Assembly (NCBI RefSeq): GCF_001536285.1 | Contig: NZ_FAOZ01000004.1 | Coordinates: 62,001 to 126,000, forward strand | From: Parafrankia irregularis | Lineage (GTDB): Bacteria; Actinomycetota; Actinomycetes; Frankiales; Frankiaceae | Direction of reading: 5' to 3' | Length of the DNA: 64,000 bases | The notes under the pieces: model-generated | The model's input: the letters and a program-made list of their open reading frames with translations, nothing else | Databases searched by the model: none | Told to the model about the DNA's origin: nothing | Translations under genes and position numbers: made by a program | Shown: piece after piece, positions 8,570-39,591 of the stretch | Position numbering within the stretch: the first letter of the stretch is position 1 | Layout: each line of letters starts with the position of its first letter

Positions 8570-8582
8570 AGCAGGACCACGG

Positions 8583-9425: not shown

Positions 9426-9461
9426 AGGAGCAAGACTGCCGCGACGACGCGAAGACCGTCG

Positions 9462-10248: not shown

Positions 10249-10265
10249 CAAGGCCTCCGAACTCA

Positions 10266-23762: not shown

Positions 23763-24216
23763 TCAGTTTGCGAGGTCGGGCCGACGGATGTTGAGGTAGG
23801 TGAGGCGGCCAGGCTCGGTGATCGGTTCGACCGCGCAGCCCTTCGCCAGCCGTCCGAGCGTGTGCGCCAGGAACACTGACGCCGTGTACTGGCTGGGTGC
23901 CAGCTCCCGATGTCCGTAGTGCGTCACAGGCGCGCGAGGTCCTGCGACGTGCGTACGCCCGTTCCACCAGGCCGTACTCGACCCACTGGCCCCGGTGCTC
24001 GGTGAGCGCGGCGGGCAGTTCGACATCCAGGCCGAACTCGTCCGCCAACCCGCTCAACCCGGGCTGCCCGGGGGCCTGTGGGGCGGCGGCCAGCCAGCGG
24101 TGCGGACCCGGCTGGGGATGCCCGCCCACCTCGCAGACGAACAGCCACGAGCCGTCATCCATCCGCGCGGGCCGGACGAACTCGTCCGAGTGGAAGGGGC
24201 ATACCTGCGCATCCAT
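23763..24216 (-). pseudogene. frameshifted copy of the gene at 34364-34909
   Basis: The first part encodes MDAQVCPFHSDEF and continues nearly identically to the gene at 34364-34909 as far as VERAYARRR. Here a 7-bp repeat unit (in CCTGCGGCCTGCG) and one further base are missing, shifting the frame. The rest of the homology (VTHYGHRELAPSQYT, FLAHTLGRLAKG) appears in another frame. Beyond about 23836 the two copies diverge and the end is unrelated. It is therefore a broken duplicate; the intact paralogue remains downstream in the window. Confidence 0.85.
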
Positions 24217-24672
24217 GCCACATAGCCTCTCAGCAGCCACGGCCACGCCGTGGCGGGAGCGGGGTCCACCGGGTCGTGGAGGGGCACGGCCGGTGGATCT
24301 GTGAAACACGAATACCCGGCGTCTGTCACCCGATTGTGTTCTCGCTGCCTGCGGATGCCCGAATCGCGATCGTGATCCCGTTGCCGGCCGCGGGGTCGAT
24401 GGCGCAGTGCAGTCCGAGATCGGTGACACGGCCGTCGCGGGCGTTCCATTCACGGGCGCCGTCGTCGCGGCCGAGGACCGCGCCCAGCGCGTCGATCGTT
24501 GCCTTCCACAGGTTCGGCCACGCCCGGCGAGGCCCGACGACGAACGCCAGTTGCAACGCGACACCGCCACCGGGCAACGGCTCCGCCGCGGCGACCTGGT
24601 CACGGATCTGTTCCTTGTAGGCGGTCGTGCTCGCCGATGCTGTTGTGCGCACCTCGAACACGCAGACCCCAC
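23836..24672. repeat. segmental duplication, copy A
   Basis: About 840 bp here are roughly 90% identical by eye to 34519-35365, in the same orientation. The segment spans most of one small gene, the intergenic region with GTGAAACACGAATACCCGGC, and the 3' half of a second gene. Gene 1 is broken here and gene 2 intact; in copy B the reverse is true. Confidence 0.9.
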
Positions 24673-25045
24673 CCGGGTCCTCGGCCGGTACCGCAGTGGT
24701 GACCTCGACCGACGAGGTCGCCGCATGACGCTTGGTCGCCCACACACTGACGAAATCCCGCCCCGTTCGCGCGATCAGTTTCGGCACGAGCGGAAACAGG
24801 TAGTTGTCGAGATCATGCGCCGTGTGCAGCGGCGCATCGCCCGCCAACCCGATGTCGAGCCGTAATGCCAGCGGACCCGGTGTCGCACGGATCGGATCGG
24901 TGACGGCTCCGTGGACGTCGCCGATGAAGGCGGCTGACCGCACCTGGCCGGGGGAGTTCGCCCTGTCCCAGCTCGCGAGCGCAGGCTCGACACCCAGCAC
25001 GACGCCTTCACCCGGCGGCTGCGCGTAGAAGACAGGAGTAGTCAC
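24326..25045 (-). CDS. unknown protein with a RusA-like DLDN motif
   Basis: The intact 239-residue protein starts at a GTG. It contains AHDLDNYLFPLVPKL followed by ATKRHA, which resembles the DxDN and Lys motif of RusA-type Holliday-junction resolvases, but the rest is not clearly RusA, so I hold this as a weak similarity. Other notable phrases are RRAWPNLWKATIDALGAVLG and EWNARDGRVTDLGLH. Its 3' half is duplicated at 35019-35365, where the 5' part is lost. It lies upstream of, and in line with, the frameshifted gene at 23763-24216. Confidence 0.6.
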   Translation of the reverse strand: MTTPVFYAQPPGEGVVLGVEPALASWDRANSPGQVRSAAFIGDVHGAVTDPIRATPGPLALRLDIGLAGDAPLHTAHDLDNYLFPLVPKLIARTGRDFVSVWATKRHAATSSVEVTTAVPAEDPGGVCVFEVRTTASASTTAYKEQIRDQVAAAEPLPGGGVALQLAFVVGPRRAWPNLWKATIDALGAVLGRDDGAREWNARDGRVTDLGLHCAIDPAAGNGITIAIRASAGSENTIG

Positions 25046-25301
25046 ACGCGGAACGTATCCCCCAGTACCGACAGTTCTGTCGGGCGAGCCCTGAAGCCTC
25101 CGGGATGCGGAGTTCTTCCCTGATGGGGCTTCACGCGGGTTGACCGGGCTACATCCTGAGGGGCTCGGCGATCGAGATCCAGCCCACCCGGTGCCCCAGA
25201 CATCGGCGCGCCGTGGGCCCGTACGTCAGGCCGCGGGCCAGGGACACGCCCGGCGACCCGGCCATACCGGTCATCCGGCAGCCGCAGCCGATGGGTGGGC
25301 T

Positions 25302-25426
25302 GTGGACGTACGACGGCGTCGCCGTGCGTTTCCGCTGGTAGGCGGCCTGTTCGTGCGGTCGGGGATGGAGATCGTGGGGCCGGGGATGGTGGGGTGGCGG
25401 TTCGGGTTGTGCCCGGTTCTGTCCAC
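25302..25426. repeat. 125-bp GTGGAC/GTCCAC element, copy R1
   Basis: This is exactly 125 bp from GTGGAC to GTCCAC. Internal hairpins are ACGGC-GTC-GCCGT (25313-25325), CCGC-TGGTAG-GCGG (25332-25345) and CGGG-TTGTG-CCCG. Similarity to copies R2 and R5 continues upstream for about 40 bp (GGTCATCCGGCAGCCGCAG). A terminator-like hairpin follows 19 bp downstream. Confidence 0.85.
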
Positions 25427-25445
25427 CATAAGTAGCAGGCAGAGT

Positions 25446-25474
25446 AAAGCCCGCCAAAGATCTTGGCGGGCTTT
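25446..25474. terminator. terminator-like hairpin attached to R1
   Basis: AAAGCCCGCCAA-AGATC-TTGGCGGGCTTT has A/T-flanked GC arms and could terminate transcription in either direction. It is followed by the short direct repeat GGTCTCAGTCTTGGTCTC. The same block follows R3 and R4. Read leftward, it would lie just after a gene ending in the codons for DQD-stop. Confidence 0.75.
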
Positions 25475-25631
25475 GTGGTCTCAGTCTTGGTCTCAGACAC
25501 CCCTCGCCACCCGTTAGGTGGCAGCGCGGCTGCCGGCGGGTCGTCCTCCTCGCTGGCCTCGTTCGGCGTCTGCGAGAGCAGTCCGCCGACTAGGCTAGGT
25601 CCGCTCTGCCGGTTCGAACCTCGTTGGGCAC

Positions 25632-26414
25632 ATGCTGGAGAGCAGCTGTTCGGAACAGAGGGCTATCGATCGGGCCACGAGCGCCGCCGAGGGTGCGGAC
25701 TGGCCCCGGCAGCTCGCTCAACGGCTACCGGGTAGCGTCTCCTTGGTGGATGTCCACCTCATCAACGACATACCCGACGGCCTGACCCGGCGAGCTCGAA
25801 CGTTTGTAGCCACGCATGGCATCAGGATCGACGTTCGGCCCGTTGAGAGGAACAGGCAGTGGTGGCTTGAGCGAGACATTCCCGCAGTAGTGATCGACCG
25901 GATGGCTGCCTATCAGAAGCGATGGGGCGGTCTGGTTCTGCCACCCGCATTGCAGTACGACGGTGGCCCCAAGTACCTCGATCCGGACTCGCCCGAATCG
26001 GATTCCGCGGGTTGGTGGTTTGAAGCCGGGATGCAGCGGACCGCAGTCCCATACTCGTTCATGATTAGTCCGTCTGGTGAGTTTGGCATTCAAGCAGGCA
26101 GATGGGCGCCTCTCCATGCGACCGTCGAGGGCTGGGTGGAATCGCTCGCACTCGCGCATCACGTGTCCATGTGCGCAAAACAGGTCACCAGGCTCGTCGG
26201 CGATGACGTCAATGGCATCGAGCTGGACGGCTACGAGCCGGTGCGCGAGGTGATGGGCCTGGCGGACACCTGGTGGAGGGGGAGCGACTCGCTGGTGGCG
26301 CTCTATACAGGGGAGGCCATGTCACTCGAGTTTCCCAAGGGTCGTATCGCATTGATCTACTCCGGCCTTGATGAGTGGGGACTGCGAGGAGGCGTCGAGG
26401 TAGGCGATGGCTGA
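25632..26414 (+). CDS. hypothetical protein
   Basis: The 260-residue protein is acidic and rich in Trp (RNRQWWLERD, AGWWFEAG, ADTWWRGSDS). It has no signal peptide or membrane helix. I do not recognise a family. The start is the first ATG of the frame and has no strong ribosome site. It is isolated between two copies of the 125-bp repeat and upstream of a tRNA remnant, so it is probably cargo of an integrative element. Confidence 0.6.
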   Translation: MLESSCSEQRAIDRATSAAEGADWPRQLAQRLPGSVSLVDVHLINDIPDGLTRRARTFVATHGIRIDVRPVERNRQWWLERDIPAVVIDRMAAYQKRWGGLVLPPALQYDGGPKYLDPDSPESDSAGWWFEAGMQRTAVPYSFMISPSGEFGIQAGRWAPLHATVEGWVESLALAHHVSMCAKQVTRLVGDDVNGIELDGYEPVREVMGLADTWWRGSDSLVALYTGEAMSLEFPKGRIALIYSGLDEWGLRGGVEVGDG

Positions 26415-26610: not shown

Positions 26611-26655
26611 CATTTGAAAAGAAAAGGTCGGCGGTTCGACCCGCCCCTGCCCACC
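26611..26655 (+). other. 3' half of a tRNA-Phe-like sequence (attachment-site remnant)
   Basis: The segment CATTTGAAAAG...AAGGTCGGCGGTTCGAC...CCGCCCCTGCCCACC follows the 3' half of an actinobacterial tRNA-Phe (GAA) from anticodon loop to discriminator. One C is missing in the T arm and the stem partners are degenerate. There is no 5' half. Integrative elements that use a tRNA gene leave such 3' fragments at the far attachment site. The family assignment is from memory of tRNA-Phe sequences. Confidence 0.5.
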
Positions 26656-26670
26656 GTCATATACAGGCAA

Positions 26671-26863
26671 GAATGAGTGACATGACCAGCCCGGGTCTCG
26701 GTCGTGAGTCGATGACGAGCCTGCTCCAGGAGCTCAACGACGAACCCGCCCGATCGATGTGAAGGTCCAGTTCCTCCTCGAAGAGATCGTCGAGTCGCTC
26801 CATGACGAAAACGGCGACAACGGCGGCGACGGCGGCAACGACAACGGCGGAGCTTCTGCCTGA
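26671..26863 (+). pseudogene. possible small acidic peptide gene split by a frameshift
   Basis: An ATG at about 26671 opens 29 codons (MSDMTSPGLGRES...) ending in TGA at 26759-26761. A second frame overlapping that stop continues PIDVKVQFLLEEIVESLHDE and a Gly/Asn/Asp-rich tail, ending at 26863. Joined by one base shift they would make a peptide of about 63 residues. It could be a decayed small gene or two unrelated frames; no family is recognised. Confidence 0.3.
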
Positions 26864-26957
26864 ACTGGCCTAGGCGTAGGACGCCCGTGCCACCGCGTCG
26901 TGCGCTCAGCGCCCCGCCGCGACGGGTTATCCAGCAGCAGTAGTTGACACGTCGGCC

Positions 26958-27082
26958 GTGGACGTTCGACGGCTTCGCCGCGCGTTTCCACTGGTAGATG
27001 GCCTGTTTGTGTCATCGGGGATCGTGATCGCATGGTCGGGGATGGTGGGGTGGCGGTTCGGGTTGTGCCCGGTTCTGTCCAC
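26958..27082. repeat. 125-bp GTGGAC/GTCCAC element, copy R2
   Basis: This copy is again exactly 125 bp. Hairpin 1 is CGGC-TTC-GCCG. In hairpin 2 the pair G-C of R1 is replaced by A-T (CCA...TGG), a compensatory change. The downstream terminator-like block present after R1, R3 and R4 is absent. Confidence 0.85.
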
Positions 27083-27111
27083 GCGATCGGCCTTCCTCTG
27101 TTCGGTGGTCT

Positions 27112-27240
27112 TTGACCACCTTCCCGGGCTCCCGCGCCATGCTGGCCCAGGGGGCTACCCCCTGGAACCCCCGCCTCAGGGGGCTTCGCCCCCCGAACCC
27201 CCCGACCGCTGCGCTTCGCGCGAGCGGCTTCTTCTTTCAT
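27112..27240. repeat. GC-rich inverted-repeat cluster
   Basis: Several short hairpins follow one another (for example AGGGGGC-TTC-GCCCCCC and CCGCTGCGC-TTC-GCGCGAGCGG) with runs of C and G. No gene is supported here. Such stretches are common at the borders of integrated plasmids in actinomycetes. Confidence 0.5.
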
Positions 27241-27528
27241 GTGCGGGCAAAGGCAGAGGCCGCCGGCAGCGCCGGTGGCCTCATTGGTCTCAAATCTGGG
27301 TTCAGTTGCTCTTTGCTACCTTGCTACGGTCAGGGCCAAGTGCCGGCCGTGCCGTCGTCTCCCTCGTCGTCCGGGCTTCGCGTGTGCCGGAGCAGATCAC
27401 CGACCAGATCGGCGATGCCGGTTCGGACCTCCCTGTGCACGGGCTGCTACCGGGTAGCCGTGCTCGCCTCTGACTTCGGCGGACATCGTAGAGCCGCGCC
27501 GGCCTCGGCGCAGGCTGCGCCATTTGCC

Positions 27529-27699
27529 TTAGTCGGTCGCGTCGAAGGCGAACGGCTCGATCTCCGCTTCGACTAGCCGGGGCGGCCTAGCGATGGCCGC
27601 GGGGTTCTTCACGATCCGGCGACGCTGCTCGGCCTCGTTCAGAGCGGTCCGCGAGATTCGGTGAATCTGGTGGATCGTTGCGGGCTTCAGGTTGTTCAT
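27529..27699 (-). pseudogene. tyrosine recombinase (integrase) core-binding domain fragment
   Basis: A 56-codon frame encodes LKPATIHQIHRISRTALNEA, then RRRIVKNPAAIARPPRLVEA and EIEPF. This matches the end of the core-binding domain of actinobacterial phage-type integrases (a helix ending in NPA followed by RPP and EPFT). The catalytic domain is missing and a stop comes soon after EPF. Directly upstream, the sequence changes to the duplicated end of the lanthipeptide gene. It is a remnant, not a working integrase. Confidence 0.7.
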
Positions 27700-27708
27700 G
27701 GGTTAGTC

Positions 27709-27853
27709 CTCGGGGAAGCATGCGCGGGCCGCCGCGCGGGTGAGGGTCGCCTGTGCGCCTGCGGGCAGGCCGAGCCTGTTCCAGTGGAAGATCACCAGGT
27801 GGGCGAGGAGAGCACGCAGGCCCCGGTTGAGGGTGCCGGCGGTGGCTGCTGCT
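27709..27853 (-). pseudogene. stray 3' fragment of the thiopeptide-type gene
   Basis: About 145 bp are nearly identical to 1672-1816, the last 48 codons and stop of the thiopeptide-type bacteriocin gene. Homology stops abruptly on both sides: at an integrase fragment on the left and an ABC transporter fragment on the right. It shows recent recombination involving a lanthipeptide locus. Confidence 0.9.
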
Positions 27854-28529
27854 GCCCCGGTTCGACCTCACGCTGGCCCCCGGGCAGACCGTGGCCGTTG
27901 TCGGAGCCACCGGCGCGGGCAAGACCACCCTGGCCAAGCTGCTGGCCCGGTTCTACGACCCCACCCACGGGCGGGTCCTGCTCGACGGCGTCGACCTGCG
28001 CGACCTCGCCACCGCCGACCTGCGCCGCGCTGTGGTGATGGTGACGCAGGAGGTGTTCATCTTCTCCGGCACGATCGCCGGGAACATCGCGCTGGGCCGC
28101 CCCGGCGCCGACCGCGCGGAGATCCAACGGGTGGCCGAGGTGATCGGGGCGCACGAGTTCATCAGCGCCCTGCCCGACGGGTACGACACCGACATCCAGG
28201 CCGGTGGGCACCGTGTCTCCGCCGGGCAGCGGCAGCTGGTGGCGCTGGCCCGCGCGCTGCTGGCCGACCCGGCCGTGGTGATCCTCGACGAGGCCACGCC
28301 GTCGCTGGACATCCCCGGCGAGCGGCTGGTCCAGCAGGCGATGAACACCGTGCTGCACGGCCGCACCGCCCTGGTCATCGCGCACCGCCTGTCCACGCTG
28401 CACATCGCGGACCGGGTGCTGATGATGGCCGGCGGCCGCATCGTCGAGGACGGCACGCCCGGCGACCTCATCGATGAGCAGGGCCGGTTCGCCGAGCTGC
28501 ACACGGCCTGGCAGGACAGCCTCACCTGA
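27852..28529 (+). pseudogene. beheaded ABC exporter ATPase domain
   Basis: The frame encodes a complete ATP-binding domain: Walker [11 protein letters not shown]-loop [19 protein letters not shown], signature VSAGQRQ in place of LSGGQ, Walker B VVILDEAT and the H-loop IAHRLSTL. The membrane domain that precedes it in exporters is absent, because homology begins at [10 protein letters not shown] right at the junction with the lanthipeptide fragment. A GTG at 27891 could start a product of 212 residues, but it would lack a membrane partner here. It probably came from a RiPP-type exporter gene. Confidence 0.8.
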
Positions 28530-28772
28530 GCACCGCCCGGATGCGGCAGACCCGATCGGCGGGAGTGAACCAGGATGGTGAGACCCGATAGCGACCGGCA
28601 GAAACGCCTGCCACTTGTCCACCGCTTCGTCGACGATGCGGCCGCGCTCCGCTGTGACCTCCGCGGGGTATCGCCGGCATCTGGGGGTCGTTCGGGTCGC
28701 GACCTGCGCGTAGCGCCGTATGCTGGTCTCGGTTCGTAGCGTGGCGGAGACACCAGCGAGGAGGACTCGTCT

Positions 28773-28970
28773 ATGGGCGCTCCAGAGATCGGCCATCCGC
28801 TGTACCCGCCGCTGCGCCCCACGGTCAGCGTCGAGGAGCTCTTGGCCGCGAGAGGCACCCAACCGATCCGGTCCCTCGACGACTTGGCCGCCGACACCTT
28901 CGATTCTGACGAGGAGCTCGACGAGTTCCTCGCGTTCACCTATGCCGAGCGTCGTCGCGACGTTGCCTGA
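28773..28970 (+). CDS. vapB: antitoxin of a VapBC-like pair
   Basis: The 65-residue acidic protein starts at an ATG preceded by GAGGAGG. It has no DNA-binding domain that I can name; its C-terminal half is Asp/Glu-rich (DDLAADTFDSDEELDEF), typical of the toxin-wrapping part of VapB-type antitoxins. The stop lies nine bases before the PIN toxin start, the usual antitoxin-first order. The assignment depends on the neighbour. Confidence 0.75.
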   Translation: MGAPEIGHPLYPPLRPTVSVEELLAARGTQPIRSLDDLAADTFDSDEELDEFLAFTYAERRRDVA

Positions 28971-28979
28971 GTCGTCGCC

Positions 28980-29384
28980 GTGCAGCCTGTCGTCCTTGAC
29001 ACCGACATCGTCTCCCTGAGCCACAAGCGCAGGCTCGGCGGACCCTTGGCAACCCGCCTGATCGGCCGCCGGCCACTGATCACGTTCGTGACCTTTGGTG
29101 AGCTCACCAAGTGGACAGACCTGCGAGACTGGGGTAGCCGCCGACGTCAGGAACTCGCGGACTGGCTTTCAGGAATCCCTGTACTGCCTGGCGACGAAGC
29201 AGTTGCCGCTACTTGGGGCATACTCTCCGCGGCTGCCACCCGGGCCGGACAGCCCCGGCCGGTCAACGACATGTGGATCGCTGCCTGCTGCCTTGCCCAC
29301 AATCTGCCGCTCGCCACCTTGAACCTGAAGGACTACATGTACTTCAGGGATCATCACGGTCTACGGATTCTCGGCGAGGAGTAA
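28980..29384 (+). CDS. vapC: PIN-domain toxin (VapC-like)
   Basis: The 134-residue protein has the PIN acidic residues in LDTDIVS, FGELTKW and NDMWIAACCL, then NLKDYMYF near the end. VapC toxins are Mg-dependent RNases cutting tRNA or rRNA when freed from antitoxin. It starts at a GTG nine bases after the antitoxin gene. The pair sits between the ABC fragment and repeat R3, an ordinary place for an addiction module on mobile DNA. Confidence 0.88.
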   Translation: MQPVVLDTDIVSLSHKRRLGGPLATRLIGRRPLITFVTFGELTKWTDLRDWGSRRRQELADWLSGIPVLPGDEAVAATWGILSAAATRAGQPRPVNDMWIAACCLAHNLPLATLNLKDYMYFRDHHGLRILGEE

Positions 29385-29420
29385 CCGCTGTTCCCGACTT
29401 GGACAGTGGTGTGCGGGGCC

Positions 29421-29545
29421 GGACCGCGCCCGGCACCCGGCCGTGTGTTTCTGCTGGTCGGCGGTCTGTTTATGCGATCGGGGATGGAGATCGCGGGGCC
29501 GGGGATCACGGGGTGGTGGTTCGGATTGTGCCCGGTCCTGTCCAC
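29421..29545. repeat. 125-bp element, degenerate copy R3
   Basis: The right ~100 bp match R1 (GCCGTGTGTTTCTGCTGGTCGG onward, ending GTCCAC), while the left terminus has decayed to GGACCG. Downstream, the terminator-like hairpin and a further ~80 bp match R4 (CCATCGTGCCGACGGGACGC). Confidence 0.75.
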
Positions 29546-29564
29546 CATCTGTACCAGGCAGAGT

Positions 29565-29593
29565 AAAGCCCGCCAATGATCTTGGCGGGCTTT
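29565..29593. terminator. terminator-like hairpin attached to R3
   Basis: AAAGCCCGCCAA-TGATC-TTGGCGGGCTTT is the same hairpin as after R1, with changes only in the loop. It could stop transcription leaving the toxin gene on the forward strand. Confidence 0.75.
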
Positions 29594-29792
29594 GTGGTCT
29601 CAGTCCTGGTCTCTTTGGGCTTGTTACCCCGTCGACACCAGCGCTCCAGTTGGCCCGCCATCGTGCCGACGGGACGCTCTCGCTGCGTTGCCTGCTAGAA
29701 ACCGCCCGTCGACCGGAACGGCGACGCGATGAGAGTCTCGGTGGGAAGGTGCTGGAACCTCTTGGGGTGCCGGTCGGGCAGGCTGAGGTCCT

Positions 29793-30119
29793 TCAGCCGA
29801 TGACGAGCCGTTCCCCTCCGAAGTCCGCGATGATCTCCAGCTGCCCGCCGAGTGCTTTGACGTAGGCGGCGAGGGTGCGTAGCTCGCTGGCGTCGACGTT
29901 GGCCCGCTCGATGGCGGAGACGCGCTCCTGCCGGACATGCATGCGGTCAGCGACTTCTGCCTGGGTGAGGCCCAGGCGTCGACGCATCTCGGCGAGCCGA
30001 TGTGCGCGGTTCTCCGCCACGAGCCGCCCGGCCCCTGCTTCGACCTCGCGGCGGTCCTGCTCCTCGGGAAAGAACTCGGCGAGGAACCCGTCTCTGTCGT
30101 ACCCGTGGGCGGTGCTCAT
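29793..30119 (-). CDS. higA: XRE antitoxin of a HigBA/RelE-type pair
   Basis: The 108-residue protein has a helix-turn-helix in MRRRLGLTQAEVADRMHVRQ followed by ERVSAIERANVDASEL and the HigA-like ending LAAYVKALGGQLEIIADFGG. It starts inside the toxin stop (ATGA overlap). HigA-type antitoxins bind the toxin and repress the operon. The order toxin then antitoxin is that of higBA. Confidence 0.88.
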   Translation of the reverse strand: MSTAHGYDRDGFLAEFFPEEQDRREVEAGAGRLVAENRAHRLAEMRRRLGLTQAEVADRMHVRQERVSAIERANVDASELRTLAAYVKALGGQLEIIADFGGERLVIG

Positions 30120-30478
30120 AGGTCACGCTCCTTGAGGTAGAGGGCGTAGCGGGCTTCGGCCAGTGGGATCGCCCGGTCGTACCAGGCCGACCACCGCCCG
30201 GCCTTGTCCCCGGCGACGAGCAGGACCGCGCGGCGCTCGGGATCGAAGACGAACAGGATGCGAACCTCGCTGGTTCCGCTCGAGGCGGGTCTGAGTTCCT
30301 TGAGGTTGTGGAGTCGCGAGCCCTTGATCCTGTCAACGAGCGGTCGGCCCAGGCTGGGGCCTTCGTCGAGAAGCGCGGTCACGGCCTGGCCGACGAGGAT
30401 CGCGGTATCTCGGTCTGTTCGACGGAGGTCATGCAGCCATTCCCGGACCTCGCTGACGATCTCCAGGCGGTAGGTCAT
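30116..30478 (-). CDS. higB: RelE/HigB-type toxin
   Basis: The 120-residue protein contains the family features VREWLHDLRRTDRD, GRPLVDRIKGSRLHNLKEL, EVRILFVFDPERRAVLLVAGDK and WYDRAIPLAEARYALYL. Such toxins cleave mRNA on the ribosome. The start at 30478 has AAGGGG upstream; the frame extends 24 codons further without support. It is coupled to the downstream HTH antitoxin by a 4-base overlap. Confidence 0.88.
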   Translation of the reverse strand: MTYRLEIVSEVREWLHDLRRTDRDTAILVGQAVTALLDEGPSLGRPLVDRIKGSRLHNLKELRPASSGTSEVRILFVFDPERRAVLLVAGDKAGRWSAWYDRAIPLAEARYALYLKERDL

Positions 30479-30796
30479 GACACGTCCCCTTGGGGCAGAG
30501 GGTTCAGTACCCAAGTGTACTGCTCTCGCGCCGTCACGCGAGCCAGTCATGTCACCTCGGCCGCGCTTTCGGCTGCACGTCTCGGGATCATGCGGGGGCG
30601 ATCTGGATCGAGACCTGCGATCTCTAAACCGCGTCCAGCCGCAGCGACGAGCACCGGAATCCAGCGGTCAACCGGCGGCAATGGTCGGCGATGTCCTCCA
30701 CCGTCCCGGCGTCAGCCGCGGAGTCGGTGCCGTCAGCAGGTTGGCGGCCGTGATCCCAGCGCCGCGCGATCCCAACGAACGCGCATCGGCACTGAC
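30479..30796. other. gap without a supported gene
   Basis: Short frames on both strands show no recognisable domain. A promoter for the toxin-antitoxin operon should lie near 30485-30530, where the sequence is locally less GC-rich (TACCCAAGTGTACTG), but no clear -35/-10 pair is evident. Confidence 0.4.
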
Positions 30797-30967
30797 ATGC
30801 TCGCCGGGGTCGATGCCGACAAGGCCGCGCCCGAGGTCGTCGCCGCGCGCATCCTCGACGGCGTCGCCGACGGTGACAGCGTCGTGTGGCCTGACGACGC
30901 CTCGGCCCGCGCCGGTTCGGTGTACCTGGCCGACCCGGTCCGGCTGGAGGAGATGCTGGCTGGTTGA
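30797..30967 (+). pseudogene. C-terminal remnant of a short-chain dehydrogenase
   Basis: The 56 residues MLAGVDADKAAPEVVAARIL followed by DGVADGDSVVWPDDASAR resemble the last helix and tail of SDR oxidoreductases (AAPEVVA..ILDGI..G...V..DD.S). The Rossmann domain and catalytic Tyr-x-x-x-Lys are absent upstream, so this is a truncated gene. Confidence 0.6.
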
Positions 30968-31036
30968 CCTGGGCGCCGCGCTCGGAAGAGGGCGCAAACG
31001 CCACGGGGACCGCCCGGCTCGACCTGGTCGGGCGGT

Positions 31037-31594
31037 TCAGCCAGCCGCCTCGGAGGCGCGGTGGCGGACGCGGAACGACGCGCTCTTGGCGCGGTTCCCG
31101 CACGCGGCCATGTCGCACCAGCGCCGCGAGGTGTTGCGGGAACCGTCAACGAAGACCCATCGGCAGTCCGCCCCCCGGCAGGCCTTGAACCGGGGCCAGC
31201 CGGGTCGCGCCGTGGCACGCAGAAGGGCCGTGACGGTGGCCGCGCAGACGTCGCGAACGAGCCCGTCGGGGCCGACCGCAAGCAGGGACGGGCTACCTCG
31301 CAGATCCGGACGCAGGGTGAGCCGGTCGAGCCCGGCAGGGTCTACCCGGATGTCGACGCCATTGTTACGCAGGGCGAGGCCGCGGACCACGGCGCGCAGA
31401 GCGCGAAGCGTCGTCAGGTCCTCAGGGGTGTCGGGCCGCACGGATCCCAGGTCGGCCGGCGCGTCCAGGGCCGCCCACCAGGCCCGCATCGCGGGCGGAT
31501 CGGCGAGTTCGTCGTGCTCACCGTGCCCGGTGTTGGCCACCGCCACCAGGAGCTCTTCGTCTGAAAGGCCTGGCCACCCCGGCTCCTGCATCAC
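31037..31594 (-). CDS. CGNR zinc-finger regulator (ABATE domain)
   Basis: The 185-residue protein ends in a CGNR zinc finger: FKACRGADCRWVFVDGSRN, then RRWCDMAACGNRAKS. The N-terminal ~120 residues form the ABATE-type ligand domain (LRALRAVVRGLA). These proteins are stress-induced transcription regulators in actinomycetes. It is divergent from a DMT-family exporter, which it may control. Confidence 0.88.
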   Translation of the reverse strand: MMQEPGWPGLSDEELLVAVANTGHGEHDELADPPAMRAWWAALDAPADLGSVRPDTPEDLTTLRALRAVVRGLALRNNGVDIRVDPAGLDRLTLRPDLRGSPSLLAVGPDGLVRDVCAATVTALLRATARPGWPRFKACRGADCRWVFVDGSRNTSRRWCDMAACGNRAKSASFRVRHRASEAAG

Positions 31595-31696
31595 CTAACC
31601 ACCGTACGAGATTAATCGGTTGACCATCTGGATAACCAGTGTGACCGTTACAGCGGTTACATCACCGGTGGGGCAGTGTCAGGACGGGAGGCTTCG

Positions 31697-32710
31697 GTGG
31701 CACCGCACGGCGGCACCACGACCGGCATCCAGGCCCGAGCCGGCGAGTTGTCGATCATCGTCGCCGCCGCCGTCGACGGGGTGGGCACCACCGTCTCGGT
31801 GGCCGCCCTGCAGGCCGTGCGCCCGGCCGACCTGCTGGCGGTCGAACTCGGCGGTGCCGCCGCGGTACTGCTCGGGACGGCGGCGGCGACCGGGCGGCTG
31901 CACCGGCGCGGAGCGGGGCGGCACCTGCTGCTCGGCGCGCTGGTGCCTGGCCTGGCGTTTCTGCTGGGCGACCTGGGGCTGGCCCGCACCAGCGCCTCGA
32001 ACGGCAGCCTGCTTCTGGCGGCCGAACCCCTGCTGTCGGTGCTGCTGGCTGTCACCGTCCTGAGGGAACGACTGCCCGGCCGGGGAGTAGTCGCGCTCGT
32101 CGTCGGCCTCGCGGGCGGCGCGCTCGTGGCGTTGGAGCCTGGCGTCGACCGACCGGGCGGGAACATGACGGCCGGCAATCTCCTCGTCCTCGGCGCGGTC
32201 GTCGCGGCGGCGGTGTTCCTCGTCGCCACCCGCCGTTACGGCGATGTCGGTGACGGCGTCAACGCCAGCGCCTGGCAGACGACCGGCGGAACGTTGAGCG
32301 CGGCACCGTTTGCCGCCGTCGCCTGGACCGAGGGAGGCAGCCGGCTGGGTACTGCCGGCATCACAGCCTGGGCCGCGTGTGCCGCCGTCGCGCTCTGCGG
32401 CGTAGTGGCCGGGGTCGCGTTCAACCGGGGCATCGGCCGGGTGCCCGCCGCCCGTGCCGGTCAGCTGCTGAATCTGACACCGGTGGTCGGCACGGCCACG
32501 TCCGTCGCCTTCCTCGGAGAGCGCCCGACGACGCTGCAGTGGGCAGGAGGCACAGCCATCCTCGTCGGTCTGGCAATGCTCCTGCTCAGGGGCTCGGCGT
32601 ATGCCCGGCAACATCCGCTCGACGACCTGACCGGTCGCACCACCGGTGAACCCCCGGCCATGGTCGAGGTCCACTCCGGTGCGCGTGGACGTCACGAAAA
32701 GGAGCCATGA
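31697..32710 (+). CDS. EamA/DMT-family transporter
   Basis: The 337-residue protein has about ten hydrophobic helices in two EamA repeats. Landmarks are LGDLGLARTSASNGSLLLAA, EPLLSVLLAVTVLRERLPGR in the first half and LLNLTPVVGTATSVAFLGER in the second. Such transporters export metabolites or amino acids. A GTG at 31697 with GGGAGG five bases upstream is preferred over the GTG at 31676. The stop overlaps the next gene by four bases, so exporter and acetyltransferase are co-translated, perhaps forming a modify-and-export resistance unit. Confidence 0.85.
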   Translation: MAPHGGTTTGIQARAGELSIIVAAAVDGVGTTVSVAALQAVRPADLLAVELGGAAAVLLGTAAATGRLHRRGAGRHLLLGALVPGLAFLLGDLGLARTSASNGSLLLAAEPLLSVLLAVTVLRERLPGRGVVALVVGLAGGALVALEPGVDRPGGNMTAGNLLVLGAVVAAAVFLVATRRYGDVGDGVNASAWQTTGGTLSAAPFAAVAWTEGGSRLGTAGITAWAACAAVALCGVVAGVAFNRGIGRVPAARAGQLLNLTPVVGTATSVAFLGERPTTLQWAGGTAILVGLAMLLLRGSAYARQHPLDDLTGRTTGEPPAMVEVHSGARGRHEKEP

Positions 32711-33669
32711 TCATGTTTCCCCGCGGCCTGGGCGTCATGCCGCCGCTGGCGTACCCGGTCGTGCTCGCTTCTCCAACCGCCGGCGAACCGCAGGCCTCAG
32801 CTCTGGGAGTCCCCATGCCACACCGTCCTGACGGGCAGCCGCTGTTCTGCGCCGTCGCCCTCGCCGAGCGCATCGAGCGGGCCGAAGCCCACCTCATCAC
32901 TGAAAGCAGCGAGGCAGCCCGCCGCCGTCGACCGGGTGCCACCGGGTTCGCCACGCCCCTTGCCGGCGGCGTGGCGAGCTTCGCCGACGAGGGCTCACCG
33001 CTGAACAAGATCGCCGGACTCGGCTTCGCCGGAACGCCCGAGGCAGCCGACCTCGACGAGGTCGAGCGGGCGTTCGCGGCCTGTGGCTCCCCGGTCCAGG
33101 TCGAACTGGCCCATCTCGCCGACCCGGCGGTCGGCGAGCTGCTGACCGGTCGCGGTTACCGGCTGGTGTCATTCGAGAACGTGCTCGGCCGTGTCCTGGA
33201 AGGCTGCCCGGACCAGACGAGGCCACCAGGCGTCGAGGTCCGGCCGAGCGGCGACGACGAGTTCGAGCTGTGGCTCGACGTCGTCTTCGACGGCTTCGCC
33301 CACCCCGACACGCAGGGGGTGCCCTCGCACGAGGACTTCCCGCGCGAGGTGCTTGCGGACGCCGTGCGCGACATGGCGGTATCCGGTGTCCGACGCTACC
33401 TCGCTTTGTGCGACGGATCTGTCGCCGGTGGTGCCAGCATGCGTACGGCTGACGGCGTCGCGCAGCTCACCGGCGCGGCGACGGCGCCCGCGCACCGGCG
33501 CCGCGGTGTGCAGTCGGCGCTGCTGGCCGCCCGGCTCGCCGACGCGGTCACCGCCGGCTGCGACATCGCGGTCGTCACCACCCAGCCCGGCTCCACATCC
33601 CAGCAGAACGCGCAGCGCCAGGGATTCGACCTGCTCTACACCCGGGCCGTGCTCGTGAAACACGCCTGA
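32707..33669 (+). CDS. GNAT-family N-acetyltransferase
   Basis: The ~320-residue protein has a C-terminal GNAT core with the acetyl-CoA loop APAHRRRGVQSALLAARLAD (RRxxGxQ/A type) and QQNAQRQGFDLLYTRAVL. The N-terminal half (GSPLNKIAGLGFAG) looks like a degenerate second GNAT fold. Two starts are possible: ATG at 32707, overlapping the exporter stop, or ATG at 32713, which is better spaced from AGGAG. The substrate is unknown. Confidence 0.85.
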   Translation: MIMFPRGLGVMPPLAYPVVLASPTAGEPQASALGVPMPHRPDGQPLFCAVALAERIERAEAHLITESSEAARRRRPGATGFATPLAGGVASFADEGSPLNKIAGLGFAGTPEAADLDEVERAFAACGSPVQVELAHLADPAVGELLTGRGYRLVSFENVLGRVLEGCPDQTRPPGVEVRPSGDDEFELWLDVVFDGFAHPDTQGVPSHEDFPREVLADAVRDMAVSGVRRYLALCDGSVAGGASMRTADGVAQLTGAATAPAHRRRGVQSALLAARLADAVTAGCDIAVVTTQPGSTSQQNAQRQGFDLLYTRAVLVKHA

Positions 33670-33830
33670 ACAGCCCACTGCCGGAAAGGCGAGTTCGCCG
33701 ATGAGCGGGGAGACGGCCGGGCGTCGCCGAGCACGCCGACGACGCTGTCAGACCGGCGGTTGCCGCCTCCGTCGCCGGCTGGGGCGGGGCGGCACGGGAG
33801 CCGGACGCGTCTAGATTCCCGGACTCGGCA

Positions 33831-34363: not shown

Positions 34364-34909
34364 TCAGCGATGCGCCGGAAGGTAGTCGATCTCCACGCCC
34401 GCGTCGGCCCAGGAGAGCCGCTCGGTCCAGTCCGGGGCTGGGAGCAGCGTCCACCATGAGATCGTCGAGTTGTACGACCAGCGCCCGGTCGCCGGACCGA
34501 ACCGCAGCGCCACCACGCCTCCTTTCGCCAGCCGCCCGAGCGTGTGCGCCAGGAACGCCGACACCGTGTACTGGCTGGGCGCCAGTTCCCGATGTCCGTA
34601 GTGCGTCACCAGGCGCGCGAAGTCCTGCGGCCTGCGACGTGCGTACGCCCGCTCCACCAGGCCGTACTCCACCCACTGGCCCCGGTGCTCGGTGAGCGCG
34701 GCGGGCAGCTCGACATCCAGGCCGAACTCGTCCGCCAACCCGCTCAACCCGGGCTGCCCGGCGGCCTGTGGGGCGGCGGCCAGCCAGCGGTGCGGACCCG
34801 GCTGGGGATGCCCGCCGCCCACCTCGCAGACGAACATCCACGAGCCGTCATCCATCCGCGCGGGCCGGACGAACTCGTCCGAGTGGAAGGGGCATACCTG
34901 CGCATCCAT
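34364..34909 (-). CDS. unknown protein with N-terminal Cys/His motif
   Basis: The 181-residue protein starts MDAQVCPFHSDEFVRPAR and contains FVCEVGGGHPQPG. The spaced Cys and His residues could bind a metal. The rest includes LVERAYARRRPQDFARLVTH and TLGRLAKGGVVALRF; no family is recognised. GAGAGG precedes the ATG. A frameshifted duplicate lies at 23763-24216, which supports this as a real protein family member. It precedes the nuclease-fold gene by 38 bp. Confidence 0.7.
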   Translation of the reverse strand: MDAQVCPFHSDEFVRPARMDDGSWMFVCEVGGGHPQPGPHRWLAAAPQAAGQPGLSGLADEFGLDVELPAALTEHRGQWVEYGLVERAYARRRPQDFARLVTHYGHRELAPSQYTVSAFLAHTLGRLAKGGVVALRFGPATGRWSYNSTISWWTLLPAPDWTERLSWADAGVEIDYLPAHR

Positions 34910-35365
34910 GCCACATAGCCTCTCAGTAGCCACGGCCACGCCGTGGCGGGAGCCAGGACCACCGGGTCGTGGAGGGGCGCGGCCGGTGGATCTGTGAAAC
35001 ACGAATACCCGGCGTCTGTCATCCGGTCGTGTTCTCGCTGCCTGCGGATGACCGAATCGTGATCCTGTTGCCGGCCGCGGGGTCGACGGTGCGGTGCAGC
35101 CCGAGATCGGTGACACGGCTGTCACGGGCGTTCCATTCGCAGGCGCCGTTGTCGCGGCCGAGGATCGCGCCCAGCGCATCGATCGTCGCCTTCCACAGGT
35201 TCGGCCACGCCCGGCGAGGCCTGACGACGAACGCCAGTTGCCACGCAACACCGCCATCGGGCAGCGGCTCCGCCATGGCGACCTGGTCACGAATCTGTTC
35301 CTTTTCGGCGACTGTGCGTGCCGACGCCGTTGTGCGCACCTCGACACGCACGCCCCACCCGGAAG
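34519..35365. repeat. segmental duplication, copy B
   Basis: This is the partner of 23836-24672 in the same orientation. Gene 1 is intact here, but gene 2 keeps only its 3' portion. Confidence 0.9.
35019..35365 (-). pseudogene. 5'-truncated copy of the gene at 24326-25045
   Basis: The frame reads VEVRTTASARTVAEKEQIRD to the stop, matching the last ~115 residues of the intact paralogue (RRAWPNLWKATIDALGAILG). Upstream of about 35365 homology is lost and replaced by sequence leading into the type VII-like cluster. The DLDN motif region is therefore gone. Confidence 0.85.
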
Positions 35366-35427
35366 GGCCTCCGCAGGGAAGGGCTTGCCATCGACATCGT
35401 GGCCGGGCGATTTCTAACGTCGCCGGT

Positions 35428-35778
35428 ATGGATGTTCCTCCTGGACCAAAACCACCCGGATCACCCGGGGACTGCCGGGCACTGGCCTCGGTGTGCGACG
35501 CATACGCGCAGGTTCTCGGCGACGAGATCCGCGCGGCCGGCACGATTTACGGAATCGTCGGCTCGGACCGCTGGACGGGCCGGTCGGCCCGCTTCGTTCG
35601 TGGCGCGATCAGCGACTGGCAGGGCTCGGCCCACGACGCCGAGGGCTCGCTGCGCGGGCTCGCCTCCCAGCTGCGGCGGGCGGCCGACGAGCTCACCCTG
35701 GCGCAGACGGACTGGCAGCGCCGATCCGACCGCTACGAGGCGGCCCTCCGTGACCGGGCCCGGTGGGGGCGGACGTGA
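35428..35778 (+). CDS. WXG100-like protein of the type VII-like cluster
   Basis: The 116-residue protein is largely helical with SDRWTGRSARFVRGAISDWQ in the middle, a W-x-G turn between two helices as in ESX/WXG100 substrates. The second helix is rich in Arg, Ala and Gln. It starts at an ATG preceded by a weak GCCGG. The stop overlaps the next GTG start by four bases. It is probably a secreted partner or a chaperone-like subunit of the machine encoded downstream; direct secretion is not shown. Confidence 0.7.
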   Translation: MDVPPGPKPPGSPGDCRALASVCDAYAQVLGDEIRAAGTIYGIVGSDRWTGRSARFVRGAISDWQGSAHDAEGSLRGLASQLRRAADELTLAQTDWQRRSDRYEAALRDRARWGRT

Positions 35779-36527
35779 CCGAGTATCTGCGACTCGACCC
35801 GGCGGCGATGCGGACTGTCGCCGCCGACCTCGACCGGGCGACTGACGTCGGCCGCCGGATGAGCTCGGCGTTGCCGACGTTGACGGCCGGGTACGACCTG
35901 CCCCTGGGGCTCGGGCGGCAGGCGCAGGCCGAGCTGAGCAGGCTGGGAGGGGTGATGGCCCGGGCGGGCGGGGCCCTGCACGGACTCGGGCGCGATGTGC
36001 GGGCGCGGGCGGTCCTCGCCGAGCTGGCGGACGCCGCGGAGAAGCCGGGAGCAGGCGCGGGCGGCGGCCCGGGTGCCGCACCGGCCGGTCTGGCGGACAG
36101 GCTGCGCCGGATCGTGGAGGATTTCGAATGCCCGCTGGACGACCCGGTGCGCAACCTGATTCACGAGTCCACCGCGGCGGCCGCGGGCGGTGCGGCCGGT
36201 GGGGCGAAGGCCGGCCTCGGGCAGCTGCAGGAGGCCCTGAACGACGTCGCGGACGGCGAGATCGCCAACCGTCTGCGGGAGGGGGTCAACCGGAACCTCG
36301 ATCAGTGTCAGCCACCCGTCGAACTGCCCGAGCCGTTGCCGCCACCGCCGCCCCCACCGCCGCCGCCCGGGCTGCTTGAGCGGGTCGCCGACGCTGTCGA
36401 CGGAGCCGTGGACGACGTCGTCGACGGGGCCCGGCAGGTACTCGAGGATCTTCCCGCTCCGGGTGACCAGCCGCGCGGCGGAATGCCACCGCTCCCCGTG
36501 CCGCCGCCGATCGTGCCGATTCCCTGA
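35775..36527 (+). CDS. helical Pro-rich protein, probable type VII-secreted partner
   Basis: The 250-residue protein starts at a GTG overlapping the previous stop. The first ~90 residues are helical (YLRLDPAAMRTVAADLDRAT), like the LXG/WXG class. A Gly/Ala-rich stretch follows, then a run of about ten prolines near residue 200 and a Pro-rich tail. There is no signal peptide. It forms a pair with the WXG100-like gene upstream. Function is unknown; a secreted or scaffold role is inferred. Confidence 0.6.
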   Translation: MTEYLRLDPAAMRTVAADLDRATDVGRRMSSALPTLTAGYDLPLGLGRQAQAELSRLGGVMARAGGALHGLGRDVRARAVLAELADAAEKPGAGAGGGPGAAPAGLADRLRRIVEDFECPLDDPVRNLIHESTAAAAGGAAGGAKAGLGQLQEALNDVADGEIANRLREGVNRNLDQCQPPVELPEPLPPPPPPPPPPGLLERVADAVDGAVDDVVDGARQVLEDLPAPGDQPRGGMPPLPVPPPIVPIP

Positions 36528-36551
36528 TCCGTACAGATTCCCTGATCCGCC

Positions 36552-36587
36552 CCCGGGCGGGGCCGTCCGTCGACGCCCCCGCCCGGG
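36552..36587. terminator. bidirectional terminator
   Basis: CCCGGGCGGGG and CCCCGCCCGGG form an 11-bp perfect stem with a 14-base loop between convergent genes ending at 36527 and 36606. Confidence 0.75.
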
Positions 36588-36605
36588 CCGTTCCCGCGCC
36601 GACGC

Positions 36606-39500
36606 CTACGGCCAGATGTAGCCGAGGACGAAGTTGTAGCTGGTGTAACCGCGGGCCGCGTATTCGGAGTAGGCCCCGGACGGGTTCACCGCCCACACCC
36701 AGGAGACGTCCCCCGGGTCGAACATCGCGTCGACCTGCAGGGTGCCGGCCGGGCGGCTGGCGGCGGCGTAGGTGTAGAAGGCGATCCCCTCGTTGACGTA
36801 GCCCGGTTGCGCGTTGGGATTCATCGAGAAGTAGTAGGTCGTGCCCTTGCCGCAGGCGCTGTCGCACCGGGACCGGTAGACCGCGGTGGTGCCACCGCCC
36901 GGCGACGCCGCGGAGAACACGCTGCCGAGCTGCCGGTTGAAGGTGTAGCCGGCCTCGCTCGCGTTGGTGCTCAGCAGGTAGTAGGGCTCCCCGTTGCGCT
37001 TGTGCAGGTACAGCGGCACGGGGGCGGCGTCCTCGTAGGCGTAGGTGACGGAGGCCTGCGGGGCCACCGCGGTGCCGGCCGCCGGGTCCTGCGCGAGGAC
37101 GGAGTTCGGCTGGTTCGTCGGGTAGTCCGTGGACGGCACCGGGGTGAGACCAGCGGCGGTGATCGTCGCCGCGGCGGTCGCCGGGTCCATCCCGACCACG
37201 TTGGGCACCGCGACCGGCGCACCACCGTAGTACCGGACGGTGATCGGGTCGGCCGGCCCCGCGGCGCTGCCCGCGACCGGCTGCTGGTCGATCACGACCC
37301 CGGGGGTCGTCCCGGCCGGCGCGAGCCCGAGGTCGGTCGCGGTGCAGGCGGTGAATCCGGCGGCCGCCAGCCGCCCGCAGGCGCCCGCGGCGTCGGTGCC
37401 GACCTCCGAGGGAACCGCGACCTTGTCTGGGTAGACGAGTCTCACCTGGCCGCCGCGGTCGAGCGGGCTCTTGGCCGCCGGATCCTGCCGGGTGACCAGG
37501 TTCAGGCCGGTAGCGGCATTCGCGAGGCCCTCCGCGGTCGGGGTGCAGGTCAGCCCGAGGTCGGTGACTTCCTTACAGGCCGCGGTGACGTCTCTGCCGG
37601 CCAGGTCGGGCACCTGTGCGCGGTCGCGGTAGCGGACCTCGACGATGTACCGCTCCTGCACCTGGCTCCCCGGCGCCGGGTCGGTGCTGATGACGGTGCC
37701 GACGGTCCCGCCGTCCAGCTGGCCGGATGCCACCGGCCGGCATTCCAGGCGCACGGCGCGCAATGCCGCGCAGGCAGCGGTCTGCTGCTGGCCCCGGACG
37801 TCGGGCACCGTGACGGTCGGTACCGCCGGGGTCGTGCGCGACGGTGCGCCGTTGGCCGGTCCGCCAGCCGGTGACTGCCCGACGGGACCACCGCCGGTAG
37901 GTGGCGTACGACCGGCCGGCGCCGGCTGTGGGGCCGGCGGGGTGGAGCGGGTCGACGGCGCCGGCGGGGCGGGTGACGAGCTCGAAGGGGCGCGGCCGAC
38001 GGGTGCTCGCGGGGTGGACGACGGCTGCGTCGGGGGTGTGCTCGGGATGCCCGCCGCGGCCGGCGGCCCGGTCGCTCCGGTACCGGCGCCGCCCGCCGGG
38101 CCGGCCGCATCGGCGGTGCCGGCGGGCCCGGAGCCGTCGCCCTTGTTGACGCTGGACCTGGTGCCGTCCGGCGAGACCGTGGCGGCCCAGCTGGCGTACT
38201 GGTTGTTGATCCACAGTCGGCCACCGTCGATCTTCAGCTCGATGTCACCGGAACTGCCTGCCGGCATCGCGATCTCACTTGCGGCGGCGGGGGTGGCTGC
38301 GTCGAGCCAGAGAACTTTCTGATGCGTGGTGTCCGGTACGTACAACCGCCCGTAGGCCTCCAGCGGGCGGCCGTATCGAGGCTGCCCATCGCTGCCGAGC
38401 GCGATCGGTGCGCCCACCGTGCCCTGCTCGACATCCACCCGGATCATCTGTCGCCGCGGAACCACGACCAGCCACAGCGCGCCCGCGGTCTCGCTCGGGG
38501 CGGAGATCTGGATCTCGGCGCCGGCCGGCAGCCTGACCGGGGTCGTGCGGACTCCACCGTCCGATCGGACGAGGACGACCTCGCCGGCGTCGGCCCGCAC
38601 GACCACCGGGCGGTCGTGCACCAGGGTGAGCCCGAGGCGGTTGTCCAATCCGACGTTCACCGTGCGCAGCAGTTCGGAGCCGCGGATCTGGGCGAGTCGC
38701 CCGTCTTCCAGCAGGACCCAGAGGGTTCCGGTCGAATCCGCGGCCTGCCCGACGATCCGGCCGTCCAGGTGGACCGGAGCCCCGATACCTCCACCGCCGC
38801 CCAGTCGCGACACCGAGCTGTGGGCCGGACCACTCGAACCCGGACCACTCGAACCCGGACCGTTCGAGCTCGGACCGTTCGAATCCGGCTGGTCCTGGGC
38901 CGCGCCGGTCCGGCTCGCGTCGCTGTCGGTCGCCGCGTCCTGATCCGAACCGGCCGGTGCGTCCTCGGCGGGGGTGGTACCGGTGAGGTACGCGCTCCCG
39001 CCGCCGGCCGAAAGGGCACGCTGCGATCCGTCCGGTGCCGCGCCGGGCACCGGGGAGGCGGTCATCGCCGCGGTGTCGACCTGGGACAGCACGCCGGTGT
39101 TCTGGTTGACGACGTAAAGCTGGCCGCCGACCTCCACCGTCTGCAGACGTTCCCGCTCGGCGGCGAGGGAGCCCTGGACCTGGGCGTCCGCCTCACCGGT
39201 GAGGCCGTTGACGTGCGCCACGGTGTGACCGCTCGGCAGGTAGGTGCTCGCGTCGCCCAGCACGGCCTGGGACGCCCGGTAGCCGGTTCCGGTCGAGACC
39301 GCGGCCACCCCGACCAGGAGCAACACGGCCAGCGCCAGGCGGGTACGCGGCCGGCCGCCGCCACGCAGCGCCGCGAGGCTCGGCGCCGGGGGCCGCCGTG
39401 AGGACGACAGCCGCGAGAGCGGTGCTGATCGGCGCCGCCTCCGCCGCCGGCGGTCCGCGGTGGCGGAGGTGGCGGCTGCGGTTCGCGGTCGCGGGCTCAC
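36606..39500 (-). CDS. membrane-anchored propeller protein with four PASTA domains
   Basis: The ~964-residue protein has an Arg-rich cytoplasmic start and one membrane helix (LALAVLLLVGVAAVSTGTGY). A propeller-like extracellular region follows (repeats such as GGQLYVVNQNTGVLSQVD), then a Pro/Ser/Thr linker. Four PASTA-type domains begin VTVPDVRGQ, AQVPDLAGRD, VAVPSEVGTD and VAVPNVVGMD. The C-terminal domain resembles DUF5648 (VPLYLHKRNGEPYYLLSTNA). PASTA domains bind muropeptides, so it may tether the apparatus to the wall. A GTG at 39500 with AGGGAG upstream is preferred over the ATG at 39554. It is divergent from the FHA-HTH gene. Confidence 0.8.
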   Translation of the reverse strand: MSPRPRTAAATSATADRRRRRRRRSAPLSRLSSSRRPPAPSLAALRGGGRPRTRLALAVLLLVGVAAVSTGTGYRASQAVLGDASTYLPSGHTVAHVNGLTGEADAQVQGSLAAERERLQTVEVGGQLYVVNQNTGVLSQVDTAAMTASPVPGAAPDGSQRALSAGGGSAYLTGTTPAEDAPAGSDQDAATDSDASRTGAAQDQPDSNGPSSNGPGSSGPGSSGPAHSSVSRLGGGGGIGAPVHLDGRIVGQAADSTGTLWVLLEDGRLAQIRGSELLRTVNVGLDNRLGLTLVHDRPVVVRADAGEVVLVRSDGGVRTTPVRLPAGAEIQISAPSETAGALWLVVVPRRQMIRVDVEQGTVGAPIALGSDGQPRYGRPLEAYGRLYVPDTTHQKVLWLDAATPAAASEIAMPAGSSGDIELKIDGGRLWINNQYASWAATVSPDGTRSSVNKGDGSGPAGTADAAGPAGGAGTGATGPPAAAGIPSTPPTQPSSTPRAPVGRAPSSSSPAPPAPSTRSTPPAPQPAPAGRTPPTGGGPVGQSPAGGPANGAPSRTTPAVPTVTVPDVRGQQQTAACAALRAVRLECRPVASGQLDGGTVGTVISTDPAPGSQVQERYIVEVRYRDRAQVPDLAGRDVTAACKEVTDLGLTCTPTAEGLANAATGLNLVTRQDPAAKSPLDRGGQVRLVYPDKVAVPSEVGTDAAGACGRLAAAGFTACTATDLGLAPAGTTPGVVIDQQPVAGSAAGPADPITVRYYGGAPVAVPNVVGMDPATAAATITAAGLTPVPSTDYPTNQPNSVLAQDPAAGTAVAPQASVTYAYEDAAPVPLYLHKRNGEPYYLLSTNASEAGYTFNRQLGSVFSAASPGGGTTAVYRSRCDSACGKGTTYYFSMNPNAQPGYVNEGIAFYTYAAASRPAGTLQVDAMFDPGDVSWVWAVNPSGAYSEYAARGYTSYNFVLGYIWP

Positions 39501-39591
39501 GGATCTCCCTGTCGGCGCTTGGCTCAGTGATGCTCGGCGCGATGATATGGACACGAACCATCACAACCGCAATGGGAAGGGCTTCCCTCAG

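Follow-up and report, generated by a model that had tools for sequence, protein, structure and literature searches.

A junction of three gene fragments in Parafrankia irregularis, probably an end-joining scar in a graveyard of mobile elements

In the genome of the soil actinobacterium Parafrankia irregularis, fragments of three genes lie end to end: a piece of an integrase gene, the end of a lanthipeptide gene, and a 5'-truncated ABC transporter gene. We analyzed the surrounding stretch of 64,000 nucleotides, referred to here as the window, and consider this junction to be most probably (about 80%) a scar without function that end joining left among decayed mobile elements; in this reading, the mechanism, the sequence of events, and the absence of function are inferred. 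Between 27.3 and 28.55 kb, the pieces follow each other in the order integrase residues 377–420 (minus strand), integrase residues 137–188 (minus), end of the thiopeptide-type gene (minus), and residues 377–601 of the ABC protein (plus). Every piece is truncated on the side facing a join, with the exception of the 3' end of the lanthipeptide gene, which has kept its stop codon. A triple junction within 1 kb had been described in the first-pass annotation, and it is indeed present, with all three pieces recovered by sequence comparison.

The lanthipeptide piece has its counterpart in an intact FxLD class I lanthipeptide cluster at 1665–10335 (minus strand), which contains genes for a thiopep_ocin protein, LanC, LanB, an FxLD precursor (TIGR04363), an FxLD methyltransferase (TIGR04364), a regulator, and one more protein. 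Besides LanB, a second Lant_dehydr_C/TIGR03891 protein is encoded in this cluster, and the gene at 1674–2645 matches TIGR03891 (9e-52). The intact 3' end of this thiopeptide-type (Lant_dehydr_C) gene at 1665–1820 (minus) is the repeat partner of the fragment at the junction (blastn, 96.15% over 156 bp). The nearest clusters in the 35 family genomes compared are those of G010 (82.1% DNA identity) and G032 (80.5%), and the colinearity with both spans from the thiopeptide-type gene to a gene near 10 kb. The thiopeptide-type protein is matched at no more than 47% identity in the five remaining genomes of the genus. With its LanB, LanC, second Lant_dehydr_C protein, precursor, and methyltransferase, the cluster corresponds to the FxLD class I clusters with a PCMT-type methyltransferase, as outlined for Asp-containing actinobacterial families in PMC7268733; this correspondence is an assignment of the present analysis. 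Compared to the complete FxLD clusters outlined there, the copy at 27.7 kb consists of 156 bp only.

On both sides, the cluster has neighbors that deserve mention. To the left, it adjoins DNA of a different history: the stretch at 8–1659 contains an HTH regulator, a DUF397 gene, and upstream DNA and shares 92.7% identity with G014, which belongs to a different genus; this identity stops right at the left edge of the cluster, whereas G014's own lanthipeptide cluster (L052) is only 66% identical. A locus of G025 shares the same stretch only from 1195 onward. To the right, a single-chain Type ISP restriction-modification enzyme with Mrr nuclease, helicase, coupler, methylase, and specificity domains adjoins the cluster at 10534–15672, and, judged by eye, the G032 cluster likewise adjoins a restriction-modification-like operon. 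Furthermore, a conserved protein of approximately 370 aa that matches no Pfam family is encoded beside the thiopeptide-type gene in five of ten lanthipeptide loci (L049, at 9984–11108, L050, L052, L054, and L055); a search of the own genome, run without a positive control, gave no match to this downstream protein at E 1e-5.

By sequence comparison, the fragment at 27691–27849 (minus) comprises approximately residues 276–323 of the thiopeptide-type protein, corresponding to about 48 final codons, followed by the stop codon and the bases ATGAAC; its end bases overlap the integrase match. Positions 27694–27849 align to 1665–1820 without gaps and are identical at 150 of 156 sites (96.2%; E 3.6e-68). 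Since the runner-up ungapped placement of the same 156 bases on either strand of the window reaches only 73/156, a chance match is excluded. The near-identical copy of 1672–1816 that had been noted previously is thus confirmed with slightly different limits, as the edges proposed for it (27709 and 27853) were a few bases off. ATGAAC is the same as the first two codons of the next gene in G032, the one for the protein of approximately 370 aa, and the main copy has GTGGAC. At the six differing sites, either copy at times sides with a relative against the other, which shows that the fragment is no plain copy of the present main sequence. Four of the differences are coding, of which three alter two residues (Leu to Phe and Ala to Thr) and one is silent. 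Over the 147 coding bases, the fragment is 97.3% identical to the own cluster, whereas both are 79–81% identical to the nearest relatives, which indicates that the duplication postdates the split from those relatives. The divergence of the two copies (3–4%) is of an order similar to that of syntenic stretches in sister species, which are 92–97% identical. The earlier claim of a recent recombination consequently holds insofar as the event is younger than the split from the relatives, but with 3–4% divergence between the copies "recent" is a relative term only.

The ABC piece at 27850–28549 (plus) was delimited by homologue matches and represents the nucleotide-binding domain (NBD) of a 5'-truncated exporter gene (residues 377–601 of 602) plus approximately 20 bp. 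Its NBD-coding part extends from 27850 to 28529 and contains PF00005 (1.9e-29); the longest ORF with a start codon (27891–28529) is open over 212 codons, and what we take to be the Walker A, signature, Walker B, and H-loop motifs can be read in the alignment. When a full-length homologue of 602 aa was compared with the window, residues 377–601 matched and nothing else did. At 1e-3, nothing in the window matched the permease half (residues 1–376), so that the combination of transmembrane domain and NBD that characterizes an exporter is missing, and a second match to this NBD in the window was not found at the same threshold. A scan of the genomes of 84,980 species by pattern yielded at least 598 matching stretches, at least 582 of which encode relatives. 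The best 80 of these relatives, which were kept, comprise one from Fodinicola (88% aa identity) and 79 from Streptomyces (75–79%), and the DNA identities over these 80 loci range from 76.5 to 86.3% with a median of 79.4%, the Fodinicola locus L080 having 86.3%. The longest match per locus starts at 27850 in 45 of the 80, at 27852 in 24, and at 27836–27840 in 11; most matches end at 28520–28532, and the one to Fodinicola reaches 28549. Elsewhere in the family, the best match has 56% aa identity (35 genomes, E <= 1e-60, among at most 84 candidates scored per genome). The ABC exporter was probably acquired horizontally. The window piece and Fodinicola differ in 85 codons, 58 of them synonymously, and much of this divergence may predate the truncation. 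The Fodinicola homologue itself is read in shifted frames; this gene may be decaying or mis-sequenced. In Streptomyces, the gene at locus L082 encodes 602 aa with PF00664 and PF00005 and, judging from a second NBD match upstream, probably follows another ABC gene in a tandem pair. In NCBIfam, the ABC piece matches MsbA, HepA, and type I secretion ATPases best, and the bacteriocin-export models TIGR03796 and TIGR01193 match as well; the curated cut-off is passed by none of the 25 NCBIfam matches listed.

Two integrase remnants were detected by tblastn with the intact integrase of G027: the C-terminal part with residues 377–420 at 27342–27473 (minus; 73% aa identity), and residues 137–188 at 27541–27696 (minus; 79% aa identity, and 84% DNA identity to contig C159 of G027). 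The segment between residues 188 and 377 of this 426-aa tyrosine integrase is missing here. Residues 137–188 are contained in an ORF at 27529–27699, whose 56-aa fragment alone matches no Pfam or NCBIfam family at 0.01; its identification as an integrase was made through the intact homologue in G027. There, the integrase (PF00589, PF14659) adjoins tRNA-Phe and is followed by DUF3631, Prim-Pol, and FtsK-like genes. We take this element to be an AICE and regard the integrase in the window as putatively AICE-like. A further integrase 3' end is located at 25510–25637, and a 58-bp tRNA-Phe remnant, from the 3' end of the gene, at 26615–26672 (plus). The latter is 88% identical to positions 8134–8193 of the G027 locus L160, which are the last 43 bp of tRNA-Phe (8101–8176) and 17 bp beyond, and was called as a tRNA by neither ARAGORN nor Rfam. 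It is probably the attachment site of a dead integrative element. Whereas G027 has the tRNA-Phe end and the integrase 3' end side by side, approximately 577 bp lie between them here; this insert (26673–27249) consists of a repeat and the end of a decayed DUF6036-like gene, and its flanks overlap by 4 bp on G027 (L160 8190–8193), as a target duplication would. Frankia AICEs integrated at the 3' ends of tRNAs have been described together with AICE remnants in PMC3218068. As far as outlined there, the window has in common with them an integrase related to the tRNA-side one and the nearby tRNA-Phe 3'-end remnant; in contrast to them, it has kept only pieces of the integrase (the residues 137–188 and 377–420 and the 3' end at 25510–25637), and a search of the window at 1e-2 matched none of the replication and transfer proteins that the G027 element encodes (DUF3631, Prim-Pol, and FtsK-like).

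Around the junction, the integrase 3' end at 25510–25637 and the tRNA-Phe remnant are accompanied by toxin-antitoxin-like modules and by a direct repeat in five copies. At 28773–29384 (plus), a small gene without a Pfam match and a PIN-domain gene (PF01850, 2.3e-07) form a toxin-antitoxin-like pair; from about 28693, the DNA is up to 91% identical to other genomes of the family, and we regard the pair as an independent module. The sister genome G004 retains 53153–53536 with tRNA-Met (96.9%), 29531–30784 (92%), and 35364–39710 (93.6%), in a changed order. In the sister G002, 30799–33749 is retained (94%), a DUF6036/AbiEii-like gene with its 3' flank is found at the place of 26677–27082, and 1.7 kb with a gene that by eye is transposase-like replace 27083–30798 of the window. 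These reshuffled and replaced stretches identify the region as a hot spot of gain and loss.

The direct repeat is present at 25295–25494, 26951–27082, 29440–29613, 52783–53041, and 53860–54040. At E <= 1e-8 (23 of 52 candidates scored), the own genome has just these five matches, all of them in the window, around tRNA-Met at 53347–53421, which is also the sole tRNA that Rfam and ARAGORN found; neither reported anything at the junction. The repeat recurs in four of the five other genomes of the genus, G001 having its terminator part only, and in G004 it surrounds the syntenic tRNA-Met. One part of it resembles the 3' flank of the DUF6036/AbiEii-like gene, another the terminator and integrase 3' end near tRNA-Phe. 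The window also contains an 858-bp duplication with 91% identity (23830–24676 and 34512–35362), in whose copies ORFs without a Pfam match were called; the copy at 34512–35362 stops 2 bp short of the block that is syntenic in G004 (from 35364).

At the left join, the lanthipeptide relative reads ...CCCATGAAC, the integrase relative ...AAGAACCTGAAG, and the junction ...CCCATGAACAACCTGAAG, with a microhomology of 2–3 bp (AC/AAC) between the two parents. At the right join, where the lanthipeptide sequence reads ...GGTGGCTGCC, the ABC sequence GGTGCTGCCCC, and the junction GGTGGCTGCTGCTGCCCC, the microhomology is at most TGC (3 bp). Thus, the parents share no more than a few bp per join, a value that carries an uncertainty of a few bases because the parents compared are the nearest relatives and not the true donors. 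Joins with such tiny microhomology are typical of end joining. Consistent with this process, Ku is encoded on contig C22 (PF02735, 9e-53), and the LigD polymerase domain (TIGR02778) has a match above the cut-off on C7 (2.1e-66) and another just below it on C13. With Ku and the LigD polymerase domain both encoded, the pathway may exist in this organism, which is no proof that it acted at this junction. Repair scars in Streptomyces ambofaciens, as described in PMC5869714, show microhomologies and carry inserts that range from 30 bp to 18.8 kb, and the same account puts forward an end-joining route of horizontal transfer as a possibility. Like the junction described here, those NHEJ scars join unrelated sequences with microhomologies present, and their inserts came from other places in the same genome. 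However, they resulted from I-SceI-induced breaks with a known source, whereas the event in P. irregularis is unwitnessed and undated, the copies are 3–4% diverged, and the ABC piece is without a close parent in the own genome.

Among 35 genomes, the joins were seen in the own genome only. When 27660–27900 was compared at E <= 1e-10 with the 35 genomes of the order, which are the same 35 as those of the family, with up to 22 candidates per genome being scored, the matches outside the own genome reached at most 27691–27852 and thus carry neither join. Exact join sequences had 0 matches in viral contigs for each of two patterns. None of the 657 plasmid and 16 phage records having a match contains at least 80% of 27500–29000 in one place, and the best of the plasmid and phage matches listed cover the ABC part only. 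Among the papers listed on FxLD and lanthipeptides and on Frankia and lanthipeptides, none has a title that deals with the locus.

In the reading that we favor, a hot spot of decayed mobile elements would have been the site of fragment ligation, and non-homologous or microhomology end joining would have ligated fragments of three unrelated genes, namely an AICE-type integrase, a lanthipeptide gene represented by its 3' end, and an ABC exporter represented by its ATPase half. The source relatives are different for each piece (integrase, 84% DNA identity to G027; ABC, 86% to Fodinicola; lanthipeptide, 97.3% to the own cluster). Two versions of these events are about equally probable. The lanthipeptide piece might have been captured as "filler" during break repair, which its small size and the end joining on both sides would fit. 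Alternatively, a second copy of the cluster might have been deleted from inside the thiopeptide-type gene to inside the ABC gene, so that its last 150 bp remain. In the main cluster and in the fragment alike, the gene end runs into a recombination edge just past the same stop codon, and these two left edges (~1664 and ~27691, respectively) coincide within about 10 bp; random filler leaves this coincidence unexplained, and the shared edge mildly favors the end of a second copy. What speaks against a scar of either kind is that the ABC ORF is still open, its motifs are readable, and its differences from Fodinicola are largely synonymous (58 of 85 codons). A bolder proposal, according to which the junction is a fossil of NHEJ-driven capture with an endogenous 150-bp filler and foreign ABC DNA of Fodinicola/Streptomyces type ligated into the hot spot, appears to us conceivable but rather unlikely.

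The first-pass annotation had proposed that the ABC piece might be the lost exporter of the main FxLD cluster, split off by recent recombination. Its NBD is of the exporter type, to judge from the MsbA, HepA, type I secretion, and bacteriocin-export models that it matches, it is fused to lanthipeptide DNA, and the window has no second match to it. Yet none of the best 80 ABC loci from the at least 582 relatives, 65 of these 80 being at least 16 kb long, has a match at 1e-5 to any of 13 other query proteins, among them the lanthipeptide proteins. The two nearest orthologous clusters, in 20-kb loci of G010 and G032, have no match to the NBD at 1e-5 either. Eight of ten lanthipeptide loci are without an NBD match at this threshold (one of them, L053, spanning only 10.8 kb), and the remaining two have one of 36% identity. 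The ABC genes of these two distant clusters lie downstream of the thiopeptide-type gene and on the same strand, whereas here the pieces stand back to back on opposite strands. On the basis of the homologue contexts and the orthologous clusters we reject the lost-exporter reading as very improbable, and at the level of sequence there is no indication that the ABC piece ever exported the lanthipeptide.

It is just as doubtful that the truncated ABC ORF became a working stand-alone ATPase or regulator through loss of a domain. The open frame and the readable catalytic motifs would suit such a role, but the permease half is absent and the first in-frame start, GTG at 27891, is an internal codon of the parent gene, which means that the start of the domain has been cut. 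Moreover, the nearest homologue, that of Fodinicola, is itself in shifted frames, so that selection on this lineage may not be strong. The direct repeats at 25.3, 27.0, and 29.4 kb might instead bound mobile cassettes that carried the pieces as units, given that all five own-genome repeat matches among the candidates scored (E <= 1e-8) fall within 25.3–54.0 kb and have different DNA between them. The joins at 27694 and 27850, however, are not at repeats, and the repeat's partial resemblance to the 3' flank of the DUF6036/AbiEii-like gene also argues against such cassettes, which therefore seem most unlikely. Somewhat less remote, though still improbable, is an assembly chimera with a misjoin either at the 156-bp repeat or where the ABC piece begins, given that one join falls at a repeat end in a draft genome of 82 contigs. 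Against a chimera, the two repeat copies differ at six sites and hence are not one collapsed copy, the window sits inside a 519-kb contig, and the integrase pieces and the tRNA-Phe remnant are consistent with a local history of elements.

Overall, the junction is most likely an ordinary recombination scar without function whose fragment structure is unusually clear. It calls for caution, as debris fused to DNA of a biosynthetic cluster can mimic a missing exporter. If the junction is a true end-joining capture, it would provide a natural example of foreign DNA that was fixed without homology in these actinobacteria.
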